64,000 bases of DNA from Streptomyces cavernicola (GTDB lineage: Bacteria > Actinomycetota > Actinomycetes > Streptomycetales > Streptomycetaceae): the NCBI RefSeq assembly GCF_029968035.1, contig NZ_JASCIQ010000010.1:62001-126000 (forward strand), given 5' to 3'. This document shows, one piece after another, positions 5,595 through 20,783 of this stretch. A program made the translations under genes and the position numbers. The notes under the pieces are model-generated. The model had not been told where the DNA came from and did no database searches. It was given only the letters and a program-made list of their open reading frames with translations. The stretch's first letter is position 1. Each line of letters starts with the position of its first letter.

Positions 5595-7295
5595 CTAGAA
5601 CCCCGCGGGTTCCGTGTACACGCCCCACTCGTCCCGCAGCGCGTCGCAGATCTCGCCGAGGGTGGCCTCCGCGCGGACCGCGTCCAGCATCGGGCCGATC
5701 ATGTTGCCGCCGTCGCGGGCCGCCGCGAGCATCGCGTCGAGCGAGGCCCGCACCGCCGCGTCGTCCCGGCCGGCCTTGCGGCCGCCGAGGGCGCGCACCT
5801 GCTCACGCTCCACCTCGTGGCTGACCCGCAGGATCTCCAGGTCGCCGGTGACGGACGGGGTGTGGACGTTGACGCCGACGACCCGCTTCTCGCCCTTCTC
5901 CAGGGCCTGTTGGTACTGGAAGGCGGACTCGGCGATCTCGCCGGTGAACCAGCCGTCCTCGATGCCGCGCAGGATGCCGGAGGTGATCGGCCCGATCGGG
6001 TGCTGCCCGTCCGGGTGCGCCCGAAGTCCCCGCTCCTTGATCTGGTCGAAGATCTTCTCGGCATCGGCCTCGATGCGGTCGGTGAGCTGCTCCACGTACC
6101 ACGAACCGCCGAGCGGGTCCGCGACGTTGGCGACGCCGGTCTCCTCCATCAGGACCTGCTGCGTGCGCAGCGCGATCTCGGCGGCCTGCTCGCTCGGCAG
6201 CGCGAGGGTCTCGTCGAGGGCGTTGGTGTGCAGCGAGTTGGTGCCCCCGAGCACGGCGGAGAGGGCCTCGACGGCGGTGCGTACGACGTTGTTGTACGGC
6301 TGCTGCGCGGTCAGCGAGACGCCCGCGGTCTGGGTGTGGAAGCGGAGCCACTGCGCCTTGTCGGTCTGCGCGCCGTAGACCTCCTTCATCCAGCGGGCCC
6401 AAATGCGCCTGGCCGCACGGAACTTGGCGATCTCCTCGAAGAAATCGACGTGCGCGTCGAAGAAGAAGGAGAGGCCGGGCGCGAAGACGTCCACGTCCAG
6501 GCCGCGGGAGAGGCCGAGCTCCACGTAACCGAAGCCGTCCGCGAGCGTGTAGGCCAGCTCCTGCGCGGCCGTCGCCCCGGCCTCGCGGATGTGGTAGCCG
6601 GAGACGGAGAGCGGCTTGTACGCGGGGATCTCGCGGGCGCAGTGCTCCATCAGGTCGCCGATGAGGCGGAGATGGGGCTCGGGCTCGAAGAGCCACTCCT
6701 TCTGCGCGATGTACTCCTTGAAGATGTCGGTCTGCAGCGTGCCGTTGAGCGCGGCCGGGTCGACGCCCTGGCGCTCGGCGGCGACGAGGTACATGCAGAA
6801 GACCGGCACGGCGGGCCCGGAGATCGTCATCGAGGTCGTCACGTCGCCGAGCGGGATGTCCTTGAACAGGACCTCCATGTCGGCGGCGGAGTCGATGGCG
6901 ACGCCGCAGTGGCCGACCTCGCCGAGCGAGCGCGGGTCGTCGGAGTCGCGGCCCATCAGCGTCGGCATGTCGAAGGCGACACTCAGTCCCCCGCCTCCGT
7001 TGGCGAGGATCATCTTGTACCGCTCGTTGGTCTGCTCGGCGTTGCCGAACCCGGCGAACTGCCGGATCGTCCACGTCCTGCCCCGGTACCCGGTGGCGTG
7101 CAGCCCTCGGGTGTACGGGTACTCGCCGGGCCAGCCGATCCGCTCGAACCCCTCGTACACATCCCCGGGCCGCGGTCCGTAGACCGGCTCGACCGGGTCA
7201 CCGGAGAGCGTGCTGAAGTCGGCGTCACGCTTGCGTGCGGCGTCATAGCGGGCCTGCCAGCGGCGGCGGCCGTCCTCGATGGCGTCAGCGTCCAT
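5595..7295 (-). CDS. icmA: Isobutyryl-CoA mutase large subunit IcmA
   Basis: This 566-residue protein is the TIM-barrel subunit of the adenosylcobalamin-dependent mutase that interconverts isobutyryl-CoA and n-butyryl-CoA, linking valine catabolism with butyrate and polyketide precursors. Mutase signatures include [52 protein letters not shown] and [13 protein letters not shown]. It lacks the C-terminal B12-binding DxHxxG domain and has the length of known IcmA, so a separate small subunit (IcmB) must be encoded outside this window. Methylmalonyl-CoA mutase large subunits are longer. Start ATG 7295 has only a weak ribosome binding site; a near-perfect 24-base palindrome ends 8 bases upstream. 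MeaB and a PduO adenosyltransferase in the window would support its cofactor. Confidence 0.93.
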
Positions 7296-12097: not shown

Positions 12098-12250
12098 CCC
12101 GTACGGCCGACCGGCGAGCCGCCTCCTGGTCCACCGTCAGCCACCGTCACCCCACTGACCTGGTCCGACACGGTGTCACACCGCGATGACGGCGCGCCCG
12201 TTATGCCACGATTGCCCGGTCCTTTCGTGCGCCGTAGCCAAGGGGGCAGG

Positions 12251-13321
12251 ATGCCCGCCCACACCCGCACCGACCACCACCGCAGCCGCCTCGGCCGCCG
12301 CGTGCGCCTTGTGCGCCGTCGCCGGCTCGCGCGCGGCGGGGCCGCGCTCGCCGCGCTCGGGCTCGTCCTCGGCTGCAGCCCCGAGTCGGACGACCCGCAG
12401 ACCAAGGACGCGGCGCTCGTACGCGGGCCGTCCAAGCCGTCGGGCTCGCAGTCCGAGTTCTGGGTGGACCCGAACAGCCCGGCCGCCCGGCAGGTCGCGC
12501 AGTGGCGGGCGAAGGGCCGTGACTCCGACGCCGACATGATCCGCCGCATCGCCGACCAGCCGATGGCCGTATGGCCCGCGGGCGACGACCCGGGTCCGAC
12601 GATCAAGGCGGCCACGCGCGGCGCCGAGAAGGCGAACCGGACCGCGGTCCTCGTCGCGTACAACATCCCGCACCGCGACTGCGGGCAGCACTCGCGGGGC
12701 GGCGCGGCGAGCGCGGACGCCTACCGGCAGTGGATCGGCGCGTTCGCCGACAACATCGAGGACAGCAAGGCCCTGGTGATCCTGGAGCCGGACGCCATCC
12801 CGCACCTCGTGGACGGCTGCACCCCGGCCGAGTACCAGGAGGAGCGCTACCAGCTGATGTCCGAGGCGATCGACCGCCTCAAGAAGCAGCCCAACGTCAA
12901 GGTGTACGTCGACGCCGGCCACTCCGCCTGGATCCAGGACCGCGGCCGGCTCACCCAGGCACTGTGGAAGGCGGGCATCGACCGCGCCGACGGCTTCGCC
13001 CTGAACGTCTCCAACTTCCAGACGGACGCGGCGACCAAGACGTACGGCAAGGACCTCTCGAAGCTCCTGAACGGCAAGCACTTCGTGATGGACACCGGCC
13101 GCAACGGCAAGGGGCCGTTGCCCGGCGGCGACGAGGCCTGGTGCAACCCGCCGGGCCGGGCGCTCGGCAACCGCCCCAGCACGAAGACCGGCGACCCGGT
13201 CGTGGACGCGTTCCTGTGGATCAAGCGCCCCGGTGAGTCGGACGGCGAGTGCAGGGGTGGCCCCCCGGCGGGCAAATGGTGGCCGGAATACGCCCTGAAC
13301 CTCTCCCGCAACTCGGGCTAG
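12251..13321 (+). CDS. Glycoside hydrolase family 6 (endoglucanase-like) lipoprotein
   Basis: This is a 356-residue exported protein. A basic N-terminus and hydrophobic stretch end in a lipobox-like LVLGC (Cys about residue 40), suggesting membrane anchoring. The GH6 catalytic domain has ILEPDAIPHL carrying the acid Asp, VYVDAGHSAW, FALNVSNFQ, DTGRNG, WCNPPGRALG and FLWIKRPGESDG, in the canonical order. It has no cellulose-binding module. It probably hydrolyses beta-1,4-glucan at the cell surface. ATG 12251 follows AAGGGGG; an upstream in-frame ATG lacks a site. It is convergent with a GT2 synthase across repeat block 2, suggesting paired glucan synthesis and trimming. Confidence 0.9.
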   Translation: MPAHTRTDHHRSRLGRRVRLVRRRRLARGGAALAALGLVLGCSPESDDPQTKDAALVRGPSKPSGSQSEFWVDPNSPAARQVAQWRAKGRDSDADMIRRIADQPMAVWPAGDDPGPTIKAATRGAEKANRTAVLVAYNIPHRDCGQHSRGGAASADAYRQWIGAFADNIEDSKALVILEPDAIPHLVDGCTPAEYQEERYQLMSEAIDRLKKQPNVKVYVDAGHSAWIQDRGRLTQALWKAGIDRADGFALNVSNFQTDAATKTYGKDLSKLLNGKHFVMDTGRNGKGPLPGGDEAWCNPPGRALGNRPSTKTGDPVVDAFLWIKRPGESDGECRGGPPAGKWWPEYALNLSRNSG

Positions 13322-14235: not shown

Positions 14236-16062
14236 TCAGCTGCCCCCGCTGGGCGTACTGGACACCCGAGTAGTAGCCGTAGGCGCCGCACTGGGCGCCG
14301 CCTGAGTGGTCGGGGTCGTGGTCGACGGCGCCTGCACCGGCGTCGTCGGGAGCAGGACCGGTTCGAGCTCGGCCGCCCCACGCCGCGAACGGAACTCGCC
14401 GAAGGCCCAGATCGTCGCGGGCGCGAGCGAGATCACCAGGCCCAGGACCGCCCAGGTCCACATCGCCGCATGATGGTGCCCGAGCACGAACGACGCGGCG
14501 AGCGACACCGCCAGCAGCGCCGCCCACGACAGGTGGACGCGGAACGTCAGCAGCCGGTCGGGGCTGGCGTCGTCCCCCTTGGGCGTGACCACGAACCGGC
14601 AGGGCCGCCGCAGCACCGCCGCCCCCAGCGACTTGGCGTAGATCGGCGCGGAGAGCGCGGACATCGCCATCCCGGCGAGCCCCCCGGAGCCTTCCGGTTC
14701 GTGCGGGGAGACGTTGTGCCGCCGGTTCCACAGGTAGAGCCCCACCTGCAGGGCCGCGGCGTCGCTGTAGAGCATCAGCCAGATCGACGCGGCGACCTGC
14801 GTCCCGGACGCCCCGAACCACAGGAACAGGAAGCAACTGAGGATGCCGAGCGTCCAGTTGACCGCGGTCATGGGGTAGTAGACCAGCATCAGCGAGTAGT
14901 TGAAGAACCGTCCGGGCGGCATCCGGAAGGGCGCCCGCCAGTACTGCTTGATGACCGTCTCGTACGTGCCGCGGGACCAGCGGAGCTGCTGCGTGAAGAA
15001 GTCGGTCCAGGAGGCCGGGCCCTCGCCGACGGCCAGGACGTCCGGGGTGTAGACGGAGCGCCAGTGCCGGCCGGTGCGCGGGTTCTTGCGGCGGTGCAGC
15101 TCGAAGCCGGTGGCCATGTCCTCGGTGATCGAGTCGTAGAGGCCGCCGACCTGCTTGACGGCGGATATCCGTACGGCGTTGTTGGTGCCGACGAACATGG
15201 GGGCGCGGTAGGCGTTGCCGGCGCGCTGGATGAGCGCGTGGAAGAGGAACTGCTGGGACTCGGCGGCCTTGGTGACGGGGGCGTCGTAGTTCCCGTACAC
15301 CTGGGGTCCGACGACGAAGGCGACGTCCTGGTCGCGGAAGTAACCCATCATCCGCTCAAGGAAGTTGGGGAGCGGGACGTGGTCGGTGTCGACCGAGGCG
15401 AAGAACTCGTACTTGTCGCCGTGCATCGCGAGCCAGGCGTTGTAGTTGCCGTGTTTCGTCTTCGCCTTGTGGACCCCGCTGGGCCGGTTCCACTCGGGGA
15501 CGCCCTTGCGGGAGAAGTGGCGTACGCCGAGTTCGGCGCAGAGCTCCTTGGCCTCCTGGTCGTCGCCCTCGTCCAGGAGCCAGACGTCGACGACGCCGTC
15601 GTGGCGTATCTCGGTCGCGCCTTCGAGGGTGGCGCGGACCATGGATATGGGTTCCTTGCCGGGCACGTACGTGGTGATGAAGGCGACGCGGGTGCCGGGT
15701 TCGGGGCGTACGGGCACGGGGTCGCGGGCGACGAACGTGGCGTGCGCGATGGATATGACGTTGATCAGCATGAACAGCTCGATGCAGCCGATCGCGACGA
15801 GCATCGTGACGTCCAGCCAGACCAGCCAGCGGTCCCCGCCCTCGCGCTGCGTCCAGTGGGTCGGCCAGACGAGGTAGACGAGCAGGAGGCCGGTGAGGAC
15901 GGGGGCGAGCGTCATCAGGAGGACAGCGCGTATTCGGTGCGGCTCGGCGGAGAGGAGCCTGGTGTACTGCACGCGGTAGCCGCCGTGGTCGCCGCCGGCC
16001 GGCTCGGTGAGCGGCCCGGCGAGGGTGCTGTGGGTGTCGTATCGGTAGCACTCCGGCCGCAC
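14236..16062 (-). CDS. Glycosyltransferase family 2, cellulose-synthase-like membrane protein
   Basis: This is a 608-residue processive glycosyltransferase. Two N-terminal TM helices (about 45-65 and 80-105) precede the GT-A domain with VAFITTYVPGKEP, LLDEGDD (first Asp), SVDTDHV (DxD), ITEDMATGFE (TED) and QQLRWSRG (QxxRW). At least four C-terminal TM helices follow, then a Thr/Pro/Ala-rich tail. These are the complete catalytic motifs of BcsA-type synthases, but no PilZ domain is recognised, so cyclic-di-GMP control is not evident. The probable product is a beta-glucan or related polysaccharide extruded through its own channel. The convergent GH6 gene supports a cellulose-like product. It is not the glxA-linked cslA locus. 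Confidence 0.9.
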   Translation of the reverse strand: MRPECYRYDTHSTLAGPLTEPAGGDHGGYRVQYTRLLSAEPHRIRAVLLMTLAPVLTGLLLVYLVWPTHWTQREGGDRWLVWLDVTMLVAIGCIELFMLINVISIAHATFVARDPVPVRPEPGTRVAFITTYVPGKEPISMVRATLEGATEIRHDGVVDVWLLDEGDDQEAKELCAELGVRHFSRKGVPEWNRPSGVHKAKTKHGNYNAWLAMHGDKYEFFASVDTDHVPLPNFLERMMGYFRDQDVAFVVGPQVYGNYDAPVTKAAESQQFLFHALIQRAGNAYRAPMFVGTNNAVRISAVKQVGGLYDSITEDMATGFELHRRKNPRTGRHWRSVYTPDVLAVGEGPASWTDFFTQQLRWSRGTYETVIKQYWRAPFRMPPGRFFNYSLMLVYYPMTAVNWTLGILSCFLFLWFGASGTQVAASIWLMLYSDAAALQVGLYLWNRRHNVSPHEPEGSGGLAGMAMSALSAPIYAKSLGAAVLRRPCRFVVTPKGDDASPDRLLTFRVHLSWAALLAVSLAASFVLGHHHAAMWTWAVLGLVISLAPATIWAFGEFRSRRGAAELEPVLLPTTPVQAPSTTTPTTQAAPSAAPTATTRVSSTPSGGS

Positions 16063-16246: not shown

Positions 16247-16441
16247 TCAGCGGCGCGGGGACGCCGCGCGGGCCCGCCAGGAGTGCGCCGGGAGATGCGG
16301 CGGCTGATGGTCCCAGCCGGCCCGGCGGGAGCGCGGGCGCGGGTCGGGCAGTGTGTGCGACCCGCGCACCAGCGCGATGAAGACCGCGGTGAAGGCAGCG
16401 AGTTCCAGGTGGTTCGGGCTGCCTCGGACGACCTTGATCAT
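16247..16441 (-). CDS. Acyl-CoA carboxylase epsilon subunit-like small protein
   Basis: This 64-residue protein has the signature of actinobacterial acyl-CoA carboxylase epsilon subunits: an N-terminal IKVVRGSPNHLELAAFTAVF (the family pattern is IKVVRGNPTxEELAA), a basic, Pro-rich linker with a central Trp, and a C-terminal HSWRARA matching the terminal Trp-Arg motif. Epsilon subunits bind the carboxyltransferase beta subunit and stimulate malonyl- or methylmalonyl-CoA synthesis. ATG 16441 lies 11 bases after the P450 stop codon on the same strand, so the two are probably translated from one message. No alpha or beta subunit is encoded in the window. The call is inference from motif, with no search run. 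Confidence 0.72.
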   Translation of the reverse strand: MIKVVRGSPNHLELAAFTAVFIALVRGSHTLPDPRPRSRRAGWDHQPPHLPAHSWRARAASPRR

Positions 16442-16452
16442 GTGACGGCGTA

Positions 16453-17697
16453 TCACCAGGAGACCGGCAGCGCCTTGGGGCCGCGGATCAGGCCCCCCGT
16501 CTGCCACTCGATCCGCTCGGGCGGCACCGCGAGCGCGAGTGCCGGGTAGCGGTCGAGCAGGGTGGCGAGGATGATCTCGGACTCCATCCGGGCCAGCATC
16601 GAGCCGACGCAGTGGTGCGGGCCGTTCCCGAACGCCATATGGGCGATGGGCCCCCGGTCGAAGTCGAGCGCGTCGGGGTTCGGGAAGGCCTCGGGGTCGC
16701 GGTTGGCCGCGAGGTACGACGAGTAGACCGCCTCGCCCGCCCGGACCACGACGCCCGCGATCTCGACGTCCTGCGTGGCGATCCGCGGCAGGCCCACTCC
16801 GCTGCGGTGCGGGATGTAGCGCAGCAGCTCGTCGACGGCCTGCGGGATCAGCTCCGGTTCGGCGCGCAGCCGCTGAAGTTGACGCGGATGGGTGAGCAGC
16901 GCGTACACCATGTTGGCGCTGTTGTTGCGTACGGCGTGCGCACCGCTCACGAGGATGGCGGTGGCCAGGGAGATCGCCTCCGGCTCGGTGATCTCGCCGG
17001 CGTCGGCGGCCGCGGCGAGCACGCCTGCCAGGTCGTCGGCCGGCTCCTCGCGCCGCCGGGCGAGCAGGTCGACGACGCACTCGCGGACCGTCATCCTTGC
17101 GTCGCTGCTCCGCTCGGGGGCCGGCCCCGGAGTCATGATCAGGTTCGCCCAGGACGTCATGTCCTTGCGCATGTCCTGGTCCATGCCGAGCAGGTCGGCG
17201 ACGGCCGCGAGCGGGAAGGGGCCGTGCAGGTGCTCCACCAGGTCCGCGGGTGAGCCGTGCCGCTCCATCGCGTCGAGGAGGCCGTCGGCGGTGCGCTGTG
17301 CGGTGGGCCTGAGCTTCTGCATGCTCTTGCCGGTGAACGCCCGCGCCACCACCCGCCGCATGTCGTTCAGGCGGGGCGGGTCGGCGTAGTTGAGGGACGC
17401 CTGCTGGGAGGCGATGGCGTGCGGCGAGGAGCTGGTGACCGTGCGCCCGACCAGCTCCGCGCGGCTGAAGCGCGGGTCGGTCGTCGCCGCCTTGACGTCG
17501 GCGTAGCGCGCCATCAGCCAGGCGCTGCCCTCACCGAACGGCAGCTGTACCCGAGTGGCGCGCCCGTCCTGCAGCCGGGCGTGCAGGAAGGGGTCGAACT
17601 CCAGGCCCTGGAGGTCGTCGAGGCTCCAGCAGTGGACCGTCTCGTCCGAAGCCCGTTCCGTCTCCGGGCCGAGGGGCGCGCGCGGCTCTGACGTCAT
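16453..17697 (-). CDS. Cytochrome P450, CYP158-like (copy 1)
   Basis: This is a 414-residue soluble P450. The heme-thiolate loop is FGNGPHHCVGSM, and the K-helix ExxR is ELLR in DELLRYIPHRSG. The I-helix reads ILVSGAHAVRNNSANM and lacks the usual acid-alcohol (D/E-T) pair used for oxygen protonation; this is also seen in CYP158-type biaryl-coupling enzymes. It is divergent from rppA and upstream of the epsilon-subunit-like gene. A role in oxidative coupling or modification of the type III PKS product is likely. Sequence relatedness to the second P450 (19033-20250) suggests an old duplication. Confidence 0.9.
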   Translation of the reverse strand: MTSEPRAPLGPETERASDETVHCWSLDDLQGLEFDPFLHARLQDGRATRVQLPFGEGSAWLMARYADVKAATTDPRFSRAELVGRTVTSSSPHAIASQQASLNYADPPRLNDMRRVVARAFTGKSMQKLRPTAQRTADGLLDAMERHGSPADLVEHLHGPFPLAAVADLLGMDQDMRKDMTSWANLIMTPGPAPERSSDARMTVRECVVDLLARRREEPADDLAGVLAAAADAGEITEPEAISLATAILVSGAHAVRNNSANMVYALLTHPRQLQRLRAEPELIPQAVDELLRYIPHRSGVGLPRIATQDVEIAGVVVRAGEAVYSSYLAANRDPEAFPNPDALDFDRGPIAHMAFGNGPHHCVGSMLARMESEIILATLLDRYPALALAVPPERIEWQTGGLIRGPKALPVSW

Positions 17698-17921
17698 GCT
17701 TCATCTCCCTGTTGCGTTGTCGGCTTCCTTGTCGCTCCCGGTCTCTCCCGGCGGTCGGTTCCGCGGGACGCGGGCAGCGGCATGCCTTCCCTCTCGTCGC
17801 CCGACCCGCCGCGCGCGCCGTCCAGCGTCACCGGTTTGGCCCCGTCCCCGGGGGATCAGTCCCGCGCGCGCATTCCGCACCGGTCCGTGAGGCTGTGTCC
17901 GAACAGGAAAGGAGAGCCGCC

Positions 17922-18974
17922 GTGGCGACTCTGTGCAGACCAACGGTGTCCGTTCCCGACCATGTGATCACCATGGAGCAGACCCTCGACCTGGCCCGGT
18001 CCGTGCACGCGGACCACCCACAGCTCGACCTGGCCCTGCGACTGATCGAGAACACCGGCGTCGCGAAGCGGCACCTGGTGCGCCCGATCGACGAGATCCT
18101 CAAGCACCCCGGCTTCGAACAGCGCAACGCCGTCTACGAGGTCGAGGCCAAGGCGCGCGTCCCGGAGGTGGTGAAGCAGGCGCTCGCCGACGCGGACCTG
18201 CGCCCGACGGACATCGACCTGATCGTCTACGTGTCCTGCACCGGCTTCATGATGCCGTCGCTGACCGCGTGGATGATCAACACGATGGGGTTCCGCACCG
18301 ACACCCGGCAGTTGCCCATCGCCCAGCTGGGCTGCGCGGCCGGCGGAGCCGCGGTGAACCGTGCGCACGACTTCTGCACGGCGTACCCGGAGGCGAACGC
18401 GCTCATCGTCGCCTGCGAGTTCTGCTCCCTCTGCTACCAGCCGAGCGACCTGGAGGTGGGAAACCTGCTCTCCAACGGCCTGTTCGGCGACGGCGTGGCC
18501 GCGGCGGTGGTCCGTGGCCGCGGCGGCACCGGCATCGAACTGCGCCGCAACGGCTCGTACATCATTCCCCGAACGGAGGAGTGGATCGCATACGAAGTGA
18601 AGGCGACCGGATTCCACTTCCGGCTCGACCGGCGCGTTCCCGGAACCATGGAGCCGCTCGCGCCGGTGCTGAAACAGCTGGCCAGCGCCCACGGATGGGA
18701 CGCCGCCGCCTTGGACTTCTACATCATCCACGCCGGCGGCCCACGGATCCTCGACGACCTCAGCAAGTACCTCGGTGTGGCATCCGAAGCATTCCGCTTC
18801 AGCCGGACCACACTGACCGAGTACGGCAACATCGCGAGCGCCGTCGTCCTGGACGCGTTGCGCCGGCTCTTCGACGAGAACGACACCCGCGACACCGCGC
18901 GAGGCCTCCTGGCGGGGTTCGGTCCGGGCATCACCGCCGAGGTCGCACTGGGCAACTGGAGCACCGGGACGTAA
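17922..18974 (+). CDS. rppA: Type III polyketide synthase, 1,3,6,8-tetrahydroxynaphthalene synthase (RppA)
   Basis: This is a 350-residue chalcone-synthase-fold enzyme that would condense five malonyl-CoA into THN. Numbered from the GTG start it has catalytic Cys138 (QLGCAAGG), His270 (FYIIHAGGP) and Asn303 (YGNIASAV). It also has the RppA-characteristic Tyr224 (EEWIAYEV) and cysteines 106, 168 and 171 described in the S. coelicolor enzyme. Identical numbering to characterised RppA supports the GTG at 17922, which has GGAGA 8 bases upstream. The next gene is a P450, then a cupin, the order expected for flaviolin/biflaviolin pigment loci. Confidence 0.95.
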   Translation: MATLCRPTVSVPDHVITMEQTLDLARSVHADHPQLDLALRLIENTGVAKRHLVRPIDEILKHPGFEQRNAVYEVEAKARVPEVVKQALADADLRPTDIDLIVYVSCTGFMMPSLTAWMINTMGFRTDTRQLPIAQLGCAAGGAAVNRAHDFCTAYPEANALIVACEFCSLCYQPSDLEVGNLLSNGLFGDGVAAAVVRGRGGTGIELRRNGSYIIPRTEEWIAYEVKATGFHFRLDRRVPGTMEPLAPVLKQLASAHGWDAAALDFYIIHAGGPRILDDLSKYLGVASEAFRFSRTTLTEYGNIASAVVLDALRRLFDENDTRDTARGLLAGFGPGITAEVALGNWSTGT

Positions 18975-19032: not shown

Positions 19033-20250
19033 ATGCTGAGGGACGGCCCCGACACCGCGCAGCCACCCGTCACGCACTGGCCGGCACTGAACCTGGACGG
19101 GGTCGACTTCGACCCCGTCCTCGCCGAGCTGATGCGAGCAGGGCCGGTGACCCGCATCAAGCTCCCCAACGGCAGCGGCTGGGCCTGGCTCGTCTGCCGG
19201 TACGACGACGTGCGGACGGTGACCAACGACCCGCGGTTCAGCCGCAAGCTGGTCGTCGAGCACGACGTCACCCGCCTGGCCCCGCACTTCATCCCCGCCC
19301 CCGGCGCGGTCGGCTTCGAGGACCCGCCCGACCACACCCGGCTGCGTCGCGCCGTCGCCGGGGCCTTCACCGCCGCCGGTGTGGAGCGGCTCCGTACGCG
19401 GGCGCAGAAGATGCTCGACGGCTTCGTCGAGGGGATTCTGCGCGACGGACCGCCGGCCGACCTGACGGAACGGCTGCTCGCGCCGTTCCCGCTCGCCGTC
19501 GTGTGCGAGCTGATGGGCGTCCCGGAGGCCGACCGCGCCCGGGTGCACGAGTGGACCGCCCTGATCCTGTCCTCGGCCCAGGGCGCGCAGCGCAGCGAGC
19601 AGGCCAAGCAGGACATGCTGGCCTACCTCGGCGCCCGCCTGCGGGAGGGGCGCGGGACGGACGGCGACACGGTCATCGGGCTGCTCGTGGAAGCCGTCGA
19701 AGCCGGCGAGGTCACCGAGGAGGAGGCCACCGGGCTCGCGCTGCTCATCCAGATCGGCGGCGAGGCGGTCACCAACAACGTCGGCAACATGGTCTACATC
19801 CTGCTCACCCGTCCCGACCTCCTCGAACGGCTGCGCAGCACCCCGGAGTTGAGGCCCTCCGCGCTCAACGAACTCCTTCGCTACATCCCGCACCGCAACG
19901 CCGTCGGGCTCTCCCGGATCGCCCTGGAGGACGTCACGATCGCCGGCCAGCTCATCCGCGCGGGCGAAGCGGTCTACGTCTCCTACCTGGCCGCCAACCG
20001 CGACGCGGACGTCTTCCCCGAGCCCGACGAGCTACGGCTCGACCGCAGCCCCAACCCGCACGTCTCCTTCGGGTACGGCCCGCACTACTGCCCCGGAGCC
20101 GTGCTCGCCCGCCTGGAGTCCGAACTGCTCATGGACGCGCTGCTCGACCGGTTCCCCGACCTGCGGTTCAGCGTCTCCACGGACGAGTTGCGCTGGCGTC
20201 CCGGTGCGCTCATCCGGGGGCCCGAAGGTCTCCCGGTGACCTGGTCATGA
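19033..20250 (+). CDS. Cytochrome P450, CYP158A-like biaryl-coupling type (copy 2)
   Basis: This is a 405-residue P450 directly downstream of rppA. The heme loop is FGYGPHYCPGAV, the ExxR is ELLR in NELLRYIPHRNA, and the I-helix IQIGGEAVTNNVGNM lacks the canonical D/E-T pair, as in CYP158A2, which couples two flaviolin molecules. Together with THN synthase and the cupin this predicts dimeric or trimeric flaviolin pigments. ATG 19033 follows GGAGGAA. The cupin start overlaps its stop codon by ATGA, indicating translational coupling. Confidence 0.92.
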   Translation: MLRDGPDTAQPPVTHWPALNLDGVDFDPVLAELMRAGPVTRIKLPNGSGWAWLVCRYDDVRTVTNDPRFSRKLVVEHDVTRLAPHFIPAPGAVGFEDPPDHTRLRRAVAGAFTAAGVERLRTRAQKMLDGFVEGILRDGPPADLTERLLAPFPLAVVCELMGVPEADRARVHEWTALILSSAQGAQRSEQAKQDMLAYLGARLREGRGTDGDTVIGLLVEAVEAGEVTEEEATGLALLIQIGGEAVTNNVGNMVYILLTRPDLLERLRSTPELRPSALNELLRYIPHRNAVGLSRIALEDVTIAGQLIRAGEAVYVSYLAANRDADVFPEPDELRLDRSPNPHVSFGYGPHYCPGAVLARLESELLMDALLDRFPDLRFSVSTDELRWRPGALIRGPEGLPVTWS

Positions 20251-20783
20251 CCGCGCACCTCGCCCGCTCGGGACTGCTCGTGCCGCCCGGCAAGGGGCGG
20301 ACCCTGGTCACCCCGGCCCAGCAGGTCACGTTCAAGGTCACCGGGGAGCACTCCCGGGTCACCTCCAGCTTCGAGGTCGTCGTACCGCCCGGCTTCGACG
20401 TCGGGGCCCATCTGCACACCCGCAGCGAGGAGCTCTTCTACGTCCTCGAGGGCGAGCTCGACGTGATGGCGTTCGAGCCCCGCGTCCGCAGCGGCGACGA
20501 CTGGCGGCAGTGGCAGGCGCTCGACGGCCGCCGGGTCGTCCGTGCGACGCCGGGGACCGTGATCGTGGTGCCGCCGGGCTGCCCGCACGCCTTCGCCAAT
20601 CCGACGGGCGAACCGGCCAGGATGTTCTTCCAGGCCTCACCGCCACCGGACCACGAGCGGTACTTCGAGGAGCTCCTCACCCTGCTCGACGCCGGTACGG
20701 CACCGGACACCGAGGCGATCCAGGAGCTGCGGGCCCGCTACGACATCGAGCAGCTCACGCCGCTCCGCCACGACCTGACCTGA
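20247..20783 (+). CDS. Cupin-domain quinone-forming monooxygenase-like protein (MomA type)
   Basis: This is a 178-residue single-domain cupin. Motif 1 (GAHLHTRSEELFYVLEGEL) supplies two His and a Glu, and motif 2 (PPGCPHAFANPTGEP) supplies the third His, giving a complete metal site. In S. coelicolor an rppA-P450-cupin operon encodes MomA, which oxidises THN to flaviolin; position and motifs here fit that role, although assignment is by context. It overlaps the P450 stop by ATGA. It could alternatively be an unrelated dioxygenase-type cupin. Confidence 0.85.
   Translation: MTAHLARSGLLVPPGKGRTLVTPAQQVTFKVTGEHSRVTSSFEVVVPPGFDVGAHLHTRSEELFYVLEGELDVMAFEPRVRSGDDWRQWQALDGRRVVRATPGTVIVVPPGCPHAFANPTGEPARMFFQASPPPDHERYFEELLTLLDAGTAPDTEAIQELRARYDIEQLTPLRHDLT

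Follow-up and report, generated by a model that had tools for sequence, protein, structure and literature searches.

A carboxylase epsilon-family gene that follows a lineage of type III polyketide synthases in Streptomyces

INTRODUCTION

Why should a lone gene of the acyl-CoA carboxylase (ACC) epsilon family lie directly behind a cytochrome P450 gene in a type III polyketide synthase locus? The question is raised by a 64,000-nucleotide stretch of the Streptomyces cavernicola genome, hereafter the window, in which a short reading frame had been predicted to encode an epsilon subunit that either specialises a housekeeping carboxylase for the locus or serves as a new partner for the P450. The substrate of the polyketide synthase RppA is malonyl-CoA, five molecules of which are consumed per product. 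Epsilon subunits are usually described beside a beta subunit, and an rppA lineage that inherits a lone epsilon would offer a simple, direct and cheap test of whether an epsilon on its own can steer a shared carboxylase towards a single pathway. Such an arrangement is also relevant to malonyl-CoA supply in engineered strains, and the gene stands for a group of short genes that may escape annotation.

RESULTS

Organisation of the locus

The locus consists of two divergent arms separated by an intergenic region at positions 17698–17921 of the window. The reverse-strand arm begins with a CYP158-like cytochrome P450, P450a (16453–17697), which has the heme motif FGNGPHHC and matches PF00067 at 98 bits, and continues with the ACC epsilon-family gene (16247–16456). 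The forward-strand arm carries rppA (17922–18974), a type III polyketide synthase gene of the 1,3,6,8-tetrahydroxynaphthalene synthase type with Chal_sti_synt domains, followed by a second P450, P450b (19033–20250), and a cupin gene (20247–20783). P450b is CYP158A2-like, its best PDB matches being CYP158A2 entries at 589 bits. The cupin frame, whose start was placed by translation, overlaps the P450b stop by four bases and scores 58 bits against Cupin_2 when read from 20250. CYP158A2 is also the top PDB match of P450a (387.5 bits), which is 47% identical to P450b; membership of the CYP158 family, for which P450a is a candidate, is set at more than 40% identity to CYP158 members. RppA is close to a solved Streptomyces enzyme, PDB 1u0m, its best PDB match at 633 bits, which we take to be a tetrahydroxynaphthalene synthase and which is titled a putative polyketide synthase in the entry itself. 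Beside the locus, inspection by eye suggested a GH6-like glycosidase frame (12173–13321, forward strand) and a cellulose-synthase-like glycosyltransferase (14236–16062, reverse strand).

Start and family of the epsilon frame

The 64-codon frame opening with ATG at 16441 and ending at 16247 on the reverse strand, 11 bases past the P450, is present as originally described. A GTG at 16456, however, overlaps the P450a stop by four bases (GTGA) and would give a product of 69 amino acids. This start and overlap are common to 15 of 17 loci, including that of the window, and 10 of these 15 loci lack an ATG equivalent to 16441; GTG 16456 is therefore probably the start, rather than ATG 16441. In the remaining two loci, the epsilon begins with an ATG seven bases past the P450 stop.

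The frame belongs to the ACC epsilon family. This had been assigned from a sequence signature alone, and the profile search that was proposed along with that assignment bears it out: the frame matches the Pfam family ACC_epsilon, PF13822, at 34.3 bits, where the curated cut-off is 25, and all 17 aligned orthologues match at E 0.001. NCBIfam models gave no match to the frame at E 0.001. Against the PDB, a profile of the 17 orthologues found a single significant match, mycobacterial AccE5 (E 1.5e-4), which the window sequence alone reached at just E 0.94. The G, AA and two W residues that are invariant in 56 other Streptomyces epsilons are retained in all 17 P450a-linked ones. Conservation across the 57 columns shared by the two sets is correlated (Spearman 0.40, p 0.002), and the most conserved columns of the two sets overlap (Fisher p 0.04). 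The glutamate preceding the conserved E in the EELAA stretch, a frequent residue in epsilons and no curated requirement of the family, occurs in 95% of the 56 others and is replaced in 15 of the 17, by L in the window. A RAxWD stretch is fixed in the 17 P450a-linked epsilons, while its R, A and D columns are held at 25–48% in the 56 others; it also occurs in 11 of the 12 rppA-linked rows of a second alignment.

Selection acts unevenly along the gene. For the six loci that make up the window's group, the ratio of summed dN to summed dS was 0.32 for the whole gene, 0.17 for the helix, 0.09 for the C-terminal motif and 0.67 for the rest; in the group of L040–L045 and L047, the corresponding values were 0.63, 0.57, 0.10 and 0.94. 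The C-terminal values come from 14 of 15 pairs in the window's group and 20 of 21 pairs in the other. For comparison, the P450a ratio was 0.15 and 0.24, respectively. By these ratios, the C-terminal motif is constrained in both groups and the helix in one, with a loose middle part, and the epsilon gene evolves fast. AlphaFold2, run from the 17 orthologues, predicted a helix at residues 16–33 and a short helix at 47–50, with a pLDDT of 67.4 and a pTM of 0.30.

Carboxylase genes in the S. cavernicola genome

The statement that no alpha or beta subunit gene lies nearby holds for the whole of the window's contig, C2, in whose 211,690 bases we found no match to PF01039 or PF02785. Elsewhere in the assembly, PF01039 matches fall on contigs C55, C90, C81 and C62, and PF02785 matches on C79, C90, C55, C81 and C62. 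The usual context of an epsilon, a neighbouring beta gene, which stands outside the definition of the protein family, is thus absent from the window locus and present in a related locus, that of genome G284.

The genome contains four epsilon matches. Besides that of the window, these are AccE (on C72), PccE (on C55) and a further one at the C11 end. The assembly yielded no complete AccB gene. C72 opens in the end of a beta gene, which is followed by AccE (L119/L001), while C11 ends, just past its epsilon (L118, beside an AfsA-domain gene), in what by eye is a beta-like start. Both epsilons are therefore probably beta-linked and cut off by the assembly, and the C11 epsilon, considered as a second orphan, was rejected given the apparent beta start at the contig end. 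The housekeeping AccB is thus probably cut by contig ends, in which case a partner in trans probably exists in the genome. Two near-identical AccB copies collapsed in the assembly would account for the ends of C11 and C72. In two other genomes, G129 and G174, equal-scoring betas occur at three and two places, two of those in G129 near the chromosome ends; these are perhaps AccB copies in terminal repeats.

Distribution of the epsilon gene with respect to P450a

A search with P450a among the named genomes gave 79 loci, 19 of them with at least 66% identity and 60 below. The original prediction would have been called into question by orthologous loci that keep the P450 and lack the frame. This was the case in one of the 19 close loci (L048), with two more carrying a broken epsilon (L039 and L050); in the other 16, an intact epsilon directly follows P450a. 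The 60 loci below 66% are a mixed set, 31 being nearer to P450a (55–63%), 20 nearer to P450b and nine distant (30–35%), and therefore only the 31 bear on the P450a question. No credible epsilon was found in any of the 60, the 31 included. A 14-bit epsilon match in L077 (E 0.035), on the other strand, was taken as chance. An rppA match is present in 25 of the 60, and in 18 of the 31 loci nearer to P450a the P450 (56–63% identical in these 18) and rppA are divergent neighbours, the arrangement of the window, with no epsilon. L048 itself has P450a with no epsilon within 6 kb, whereas the rppA of the same genome has an epsilon and lacks P450a within the 12 kb covered.

Distribution of the epsilon gene with respect to rppA

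An epsilon profile search of 392 Streptomyces genomes gave a match at 1e-10 in 31, and 30 loci were classified; two further matches came with no locus. In 14 the epsilon follows P450a, in seven it is divergent from an adjacent rppA without an intervening P450a, and in one, that of G284, it follows a beta gene beside rppA. The remaining eight lie elsewhere, seven with a beta upstream and one without. Wider stretches around the seven epsilon-alone loci contain rppA, P450b and the cupin gene on the other arm in each case. Together with the locus of the L048 genome, eight loci have an epsilon alone beside rppA, about 271–443 bases from the rppA start, and G616 provides a ninth. The epsilons of the first eight loci and of G284, nine proteins in all, match PF13822 at 39–53 bits. 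Further epsilons following P450a were found in G619, G602 and G606. These three and G616 came from a search whose alignment also held canonical AccE, so that its counts are mixed and no prevalence was drawn from them. One locus, L267, resembles by its coordinates the L185 locus repeated. The GTGA overlap that joins the P450a stop to the epsilon start in the window recurs in G284 between the beta stop and the epsilon start; the epsilon is coupled by overlap to the preceding gene in both the P450a form and the beta form. Another epsilon without an adjoining beta was seen in L150 (4936–5127, reverse strand) and in L201 (near 6401–6574, reverse strand). The Pfam neighbours of the former are an AMP-ligase, an acyl-CoA-dehydrogenase-like protein (below the cut-off), a monooxygenase, a polyketide cyclase, and KASIII-like and HMGL-like proteins, and L201 is alike by eye.

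rppA itself was found at 1e-150 in 219 of the 392 genomes. The best 30 of these 219 comprise 22 genomes with an intact epsilon beside rppA (14 after P450a, seven alone and one after a beta), two with a broken epsilon and six with none. The recurrence of P450–epsilon pairs beside rppA, for which a survey had been proposed, is thereby established in 14 of the best 30 rppA genomes. G198 and G359 were identified as the two broken cases because their rppA coordinates match those in the L039 and L050 genomes. Among the six epsilon-less genomes, G021 keeps a beta, and G205, G312, G286, G089 and G288 have neither beta nor epsilon.

In an rppA tree of 54 loci, from which 10 duplicate loci had been removed, the 30 loci with an epsilon cluster in one group (100/97), which takes in the two broken copies. 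Most of the 54 loci were collected by searching with P450a and with the epsilon; the resulting bias is partly offset by the best 30 of the 219 rppA genomes. When the six epsilon-less loci were added to a quick tree, G205, G021 and G288 fell inside the epsilon group with modest support (SH-aLRT 83–89). The epsilon is therefore part of a single rppA lineage, within which it can disappear. In Streptomyces, the epsilon tracks the rppA lineage and not the P450. Its absence from G205, G288 and G021 and its disruption in L039 and L050 indicate that the gene is dispensable.

Beta subunits linked to rppA and the origin of the epsilon

The carboxyltransferase betas linked to rppA in G284 and G021 (L198:7795–9489, reverse strand, and L252:6672–8333, forward strand) have long open frames that match PF01039 at 563 and 487 bits, and in a quick tree they group together (SH-aLRT 100), apart from PccB. 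Of the 212 positions that are invariant in 11 other betas, however, 31 are altered in the G284 beta and 38 in the G021 beta. The GARIQ stretch has become GPRLL and GVPVL in the two proteins, and the G021 beta also has GTAY for GGAY and CSGTA for CAGGA. We take these stretches, from carboxyltransferase structures, to be the oxyanion holes. Their alteration suggests that the carboxylase activity of these two betas, possible pseudo-enzymes according to the alignment, may be reduced or lost, and it argues against a simple active dedicated carboxylase.

A single origin of the rppA-linked epsilons was recovered in 50% of bootstrap trees and was not rejected (p-AU 0.48), in trees of 73–74 columns whose deep forks are poorly separated. 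The gain of P450a requires one change on the rppA tree (76/83) and two on the quick tree. We infer that the rppA-linked epsilon derived from a beta/epsilon pair.

DISCUSSION

Our analyses favour the reading that the epsilon is dedicated to the rppA locus, derives from a beta/epsilon pair, and acts in trans on the housekeeping acetyl-CoA carboxylase to supply malonyl-CoA, to which we assign a probability of roughly 0.5. An ancestral beta/epsilon carboxylase pair would have stood divergently beside an ancestral rppA, and the beta would have been lost in most descendants. Once or twice, a CYP158-like P450 would then have been placed upstream of the epsilon, mostly with the same stop/start overlap. 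The epsilon that was kept would join the housekeeping AccA and AccB in trans and raise or redirect acetyl-CoA carboxylase activity while the locus is expressed, so that the five malonyl-CoA needed per RppA product would be supplied. The part of the original prediction in which the epsilon specialises a carboxylase for the locus thus fits the comparative evidence, given that the epsilon accompanies rppA whether the P450 is there or not, and in one case forms a beta–epsilon pair; the partner carboxylase is a putative one. Weighing against this reading are the fast evolution of the gene, its loss or disruption in some loci, the replaced glutamate, the altered motifs of both rppA-linked betas, the 50% bootstrap frequency of a single epsilon origin, the reliance on one genome for the natural test of L048, and the lack of a complete AccB gene in the assembly. 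Support for an epsilon acting in trans on AccA–AccB comes from work on AccE2, the accessible text of which reports that Streptomyces carboxylase activity depends strongly on AccE2 and argues that alternative beta/epsilon pairs operate on shared alpha subunits (PMC13118682).

It is possible, albeit doubtful, that the rppA-linked beta/epsilon pair turned non-catalytic and that the epsilon now docks or regulates the housekeeping carboxylase, or ties it to RppA, and no longer serves to activate a beta of its own. The G284 and G021 betas form one group and have kept long frames, yet have changes in the catalytic region in common, as would be expected of such an adaptor, and RAxWD is found in all 17 P450a-linked epsilons and in 11 of the 12 rppA-linked rows. 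Only two betas are concerned, however, their loss of activity would follow from sequence, and most loci have no beta; in addition, RAxWD is missing in the P450a-linked L169 (G188) and is found in L177, which is beta-linked with no rppA adjoining in the stretch seen. A more specific form, for which the odds are longer still, would have the stand-alone epsilon dock the housekeeping acetyl-CoA carboxylase onto the type III polyketide synthase as a pathway adaptor, with malonyl-CoA produced at its site of use; the accompanying beta would have become a pseudo-carboxyltransferase in some lineages and disappeared in others.

Another possibility, which we consider unlikely, would be a relic: a beta/epsilon pair that was lost would have left behind a gene in decay, preserved by chance and through its overlap with the P450 stop. 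The broken copies in L039 and L050, the absence from G205 and G288 and the ratio of 0.63 in the L040–L045 and L047 group are what decay would produce. Against it, the gene is intact in 22 of the 24 epsilon-carrying genomes among the best 30 of 219 by rppA, its invariant residues are retained, its C-terminal motif has a dN/dS of 0.09–0.10 in both groups, and a lone epsilon also occurs in loci that have no overlap.

A role in some other acyl-CoA carboxylation, for example of propionyl-CoA, in place of malonyl-CoA supply, is decidedly improbable: the AccB2/AccE2 complex accepts acetyl-, propionyl- and butyryl-CoA according to the accessible text of its description (PMC13118682), whereas both linked betas of the present loci fall among the non-PccB betas and RppA, as is generally known, uses malonyl-CoA. 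Lastly, the proposal that the epsilon is a partner or chaperone of the P450, to which the four-base overlap and the conserved order with P450a lend some colour, has very little left to recommend it and was rejected on gene context, since the epsilon stands beside rppA without P450a in eight loci and after a beta in G284, the 31 loci with a P450a relative of less than 66% identity have no credible epsilon, 18 of them lying beside rppA, and L048, a natural test resting on a single genome, has P450a with no epsilon while the rppA of the same genome has one.

The proposed locus-dedicated epsilon acting on the housekeeping carboxylase can be compared with several known systems. One is AccE2 (SCO6285) with AccB2 of Streptomyces coelicolor, likened here by its description in the accessible text: it is likewise a divergent, small PF13822 epsilon that falls outside the AccE and PccE groups and lies close behind its upstream gene. 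It differs in that AccE2 sits 14 bases past its own beta, while the window's epsilon follows a P450 on a contig with no beta match (PMC13118682).

Streptomyces AccE and PccE belong to the same Pfam family and share the G, AA and two W residues, invariant in all, with E in 96% of the others. They follow AccB or PccB, and the window's epsilon grouped with neither in weakly resolved trees. Mycobacterial AccE5 (PDB 30hu, 9t97 and 9yx1), the sole significant PDB relative of the orthologue profile, is longer, at 94 amino acids in its entry, and its solved structure bears the name of an acetyl-/propionyl-CoA carboxylase. In the accessible parts of the literature, including PMC4064979, we found no account of AccE5 contacts.

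On the side of the P450s, the accessible text on CYP158C1 describes an enzyme clustered with a type III polyketide synthase gene that dimerises phenols (PMC9443421). The literature accessible to us, subscription papers apart, yielded no account of an epsilon in an rppA locus. Both the epsilon family and the rppA–CYP158A2–cupin locus are known; new, as far as that literature shows, are the lone epsilon inherited with a type III polyketide synthase and the beta–epsilon and P450–epsilon variants in the same place. The loci in which rppA, CYP158A2 and a cupin gene are combined are presumably those of the biflaviolin pathway. The window shares with them rppA, the CYP158A2-like P450b and the cupin gene side by side, and differs from them by an extra divergent arm that carries a second CYP158-like P450 and the epsilon.
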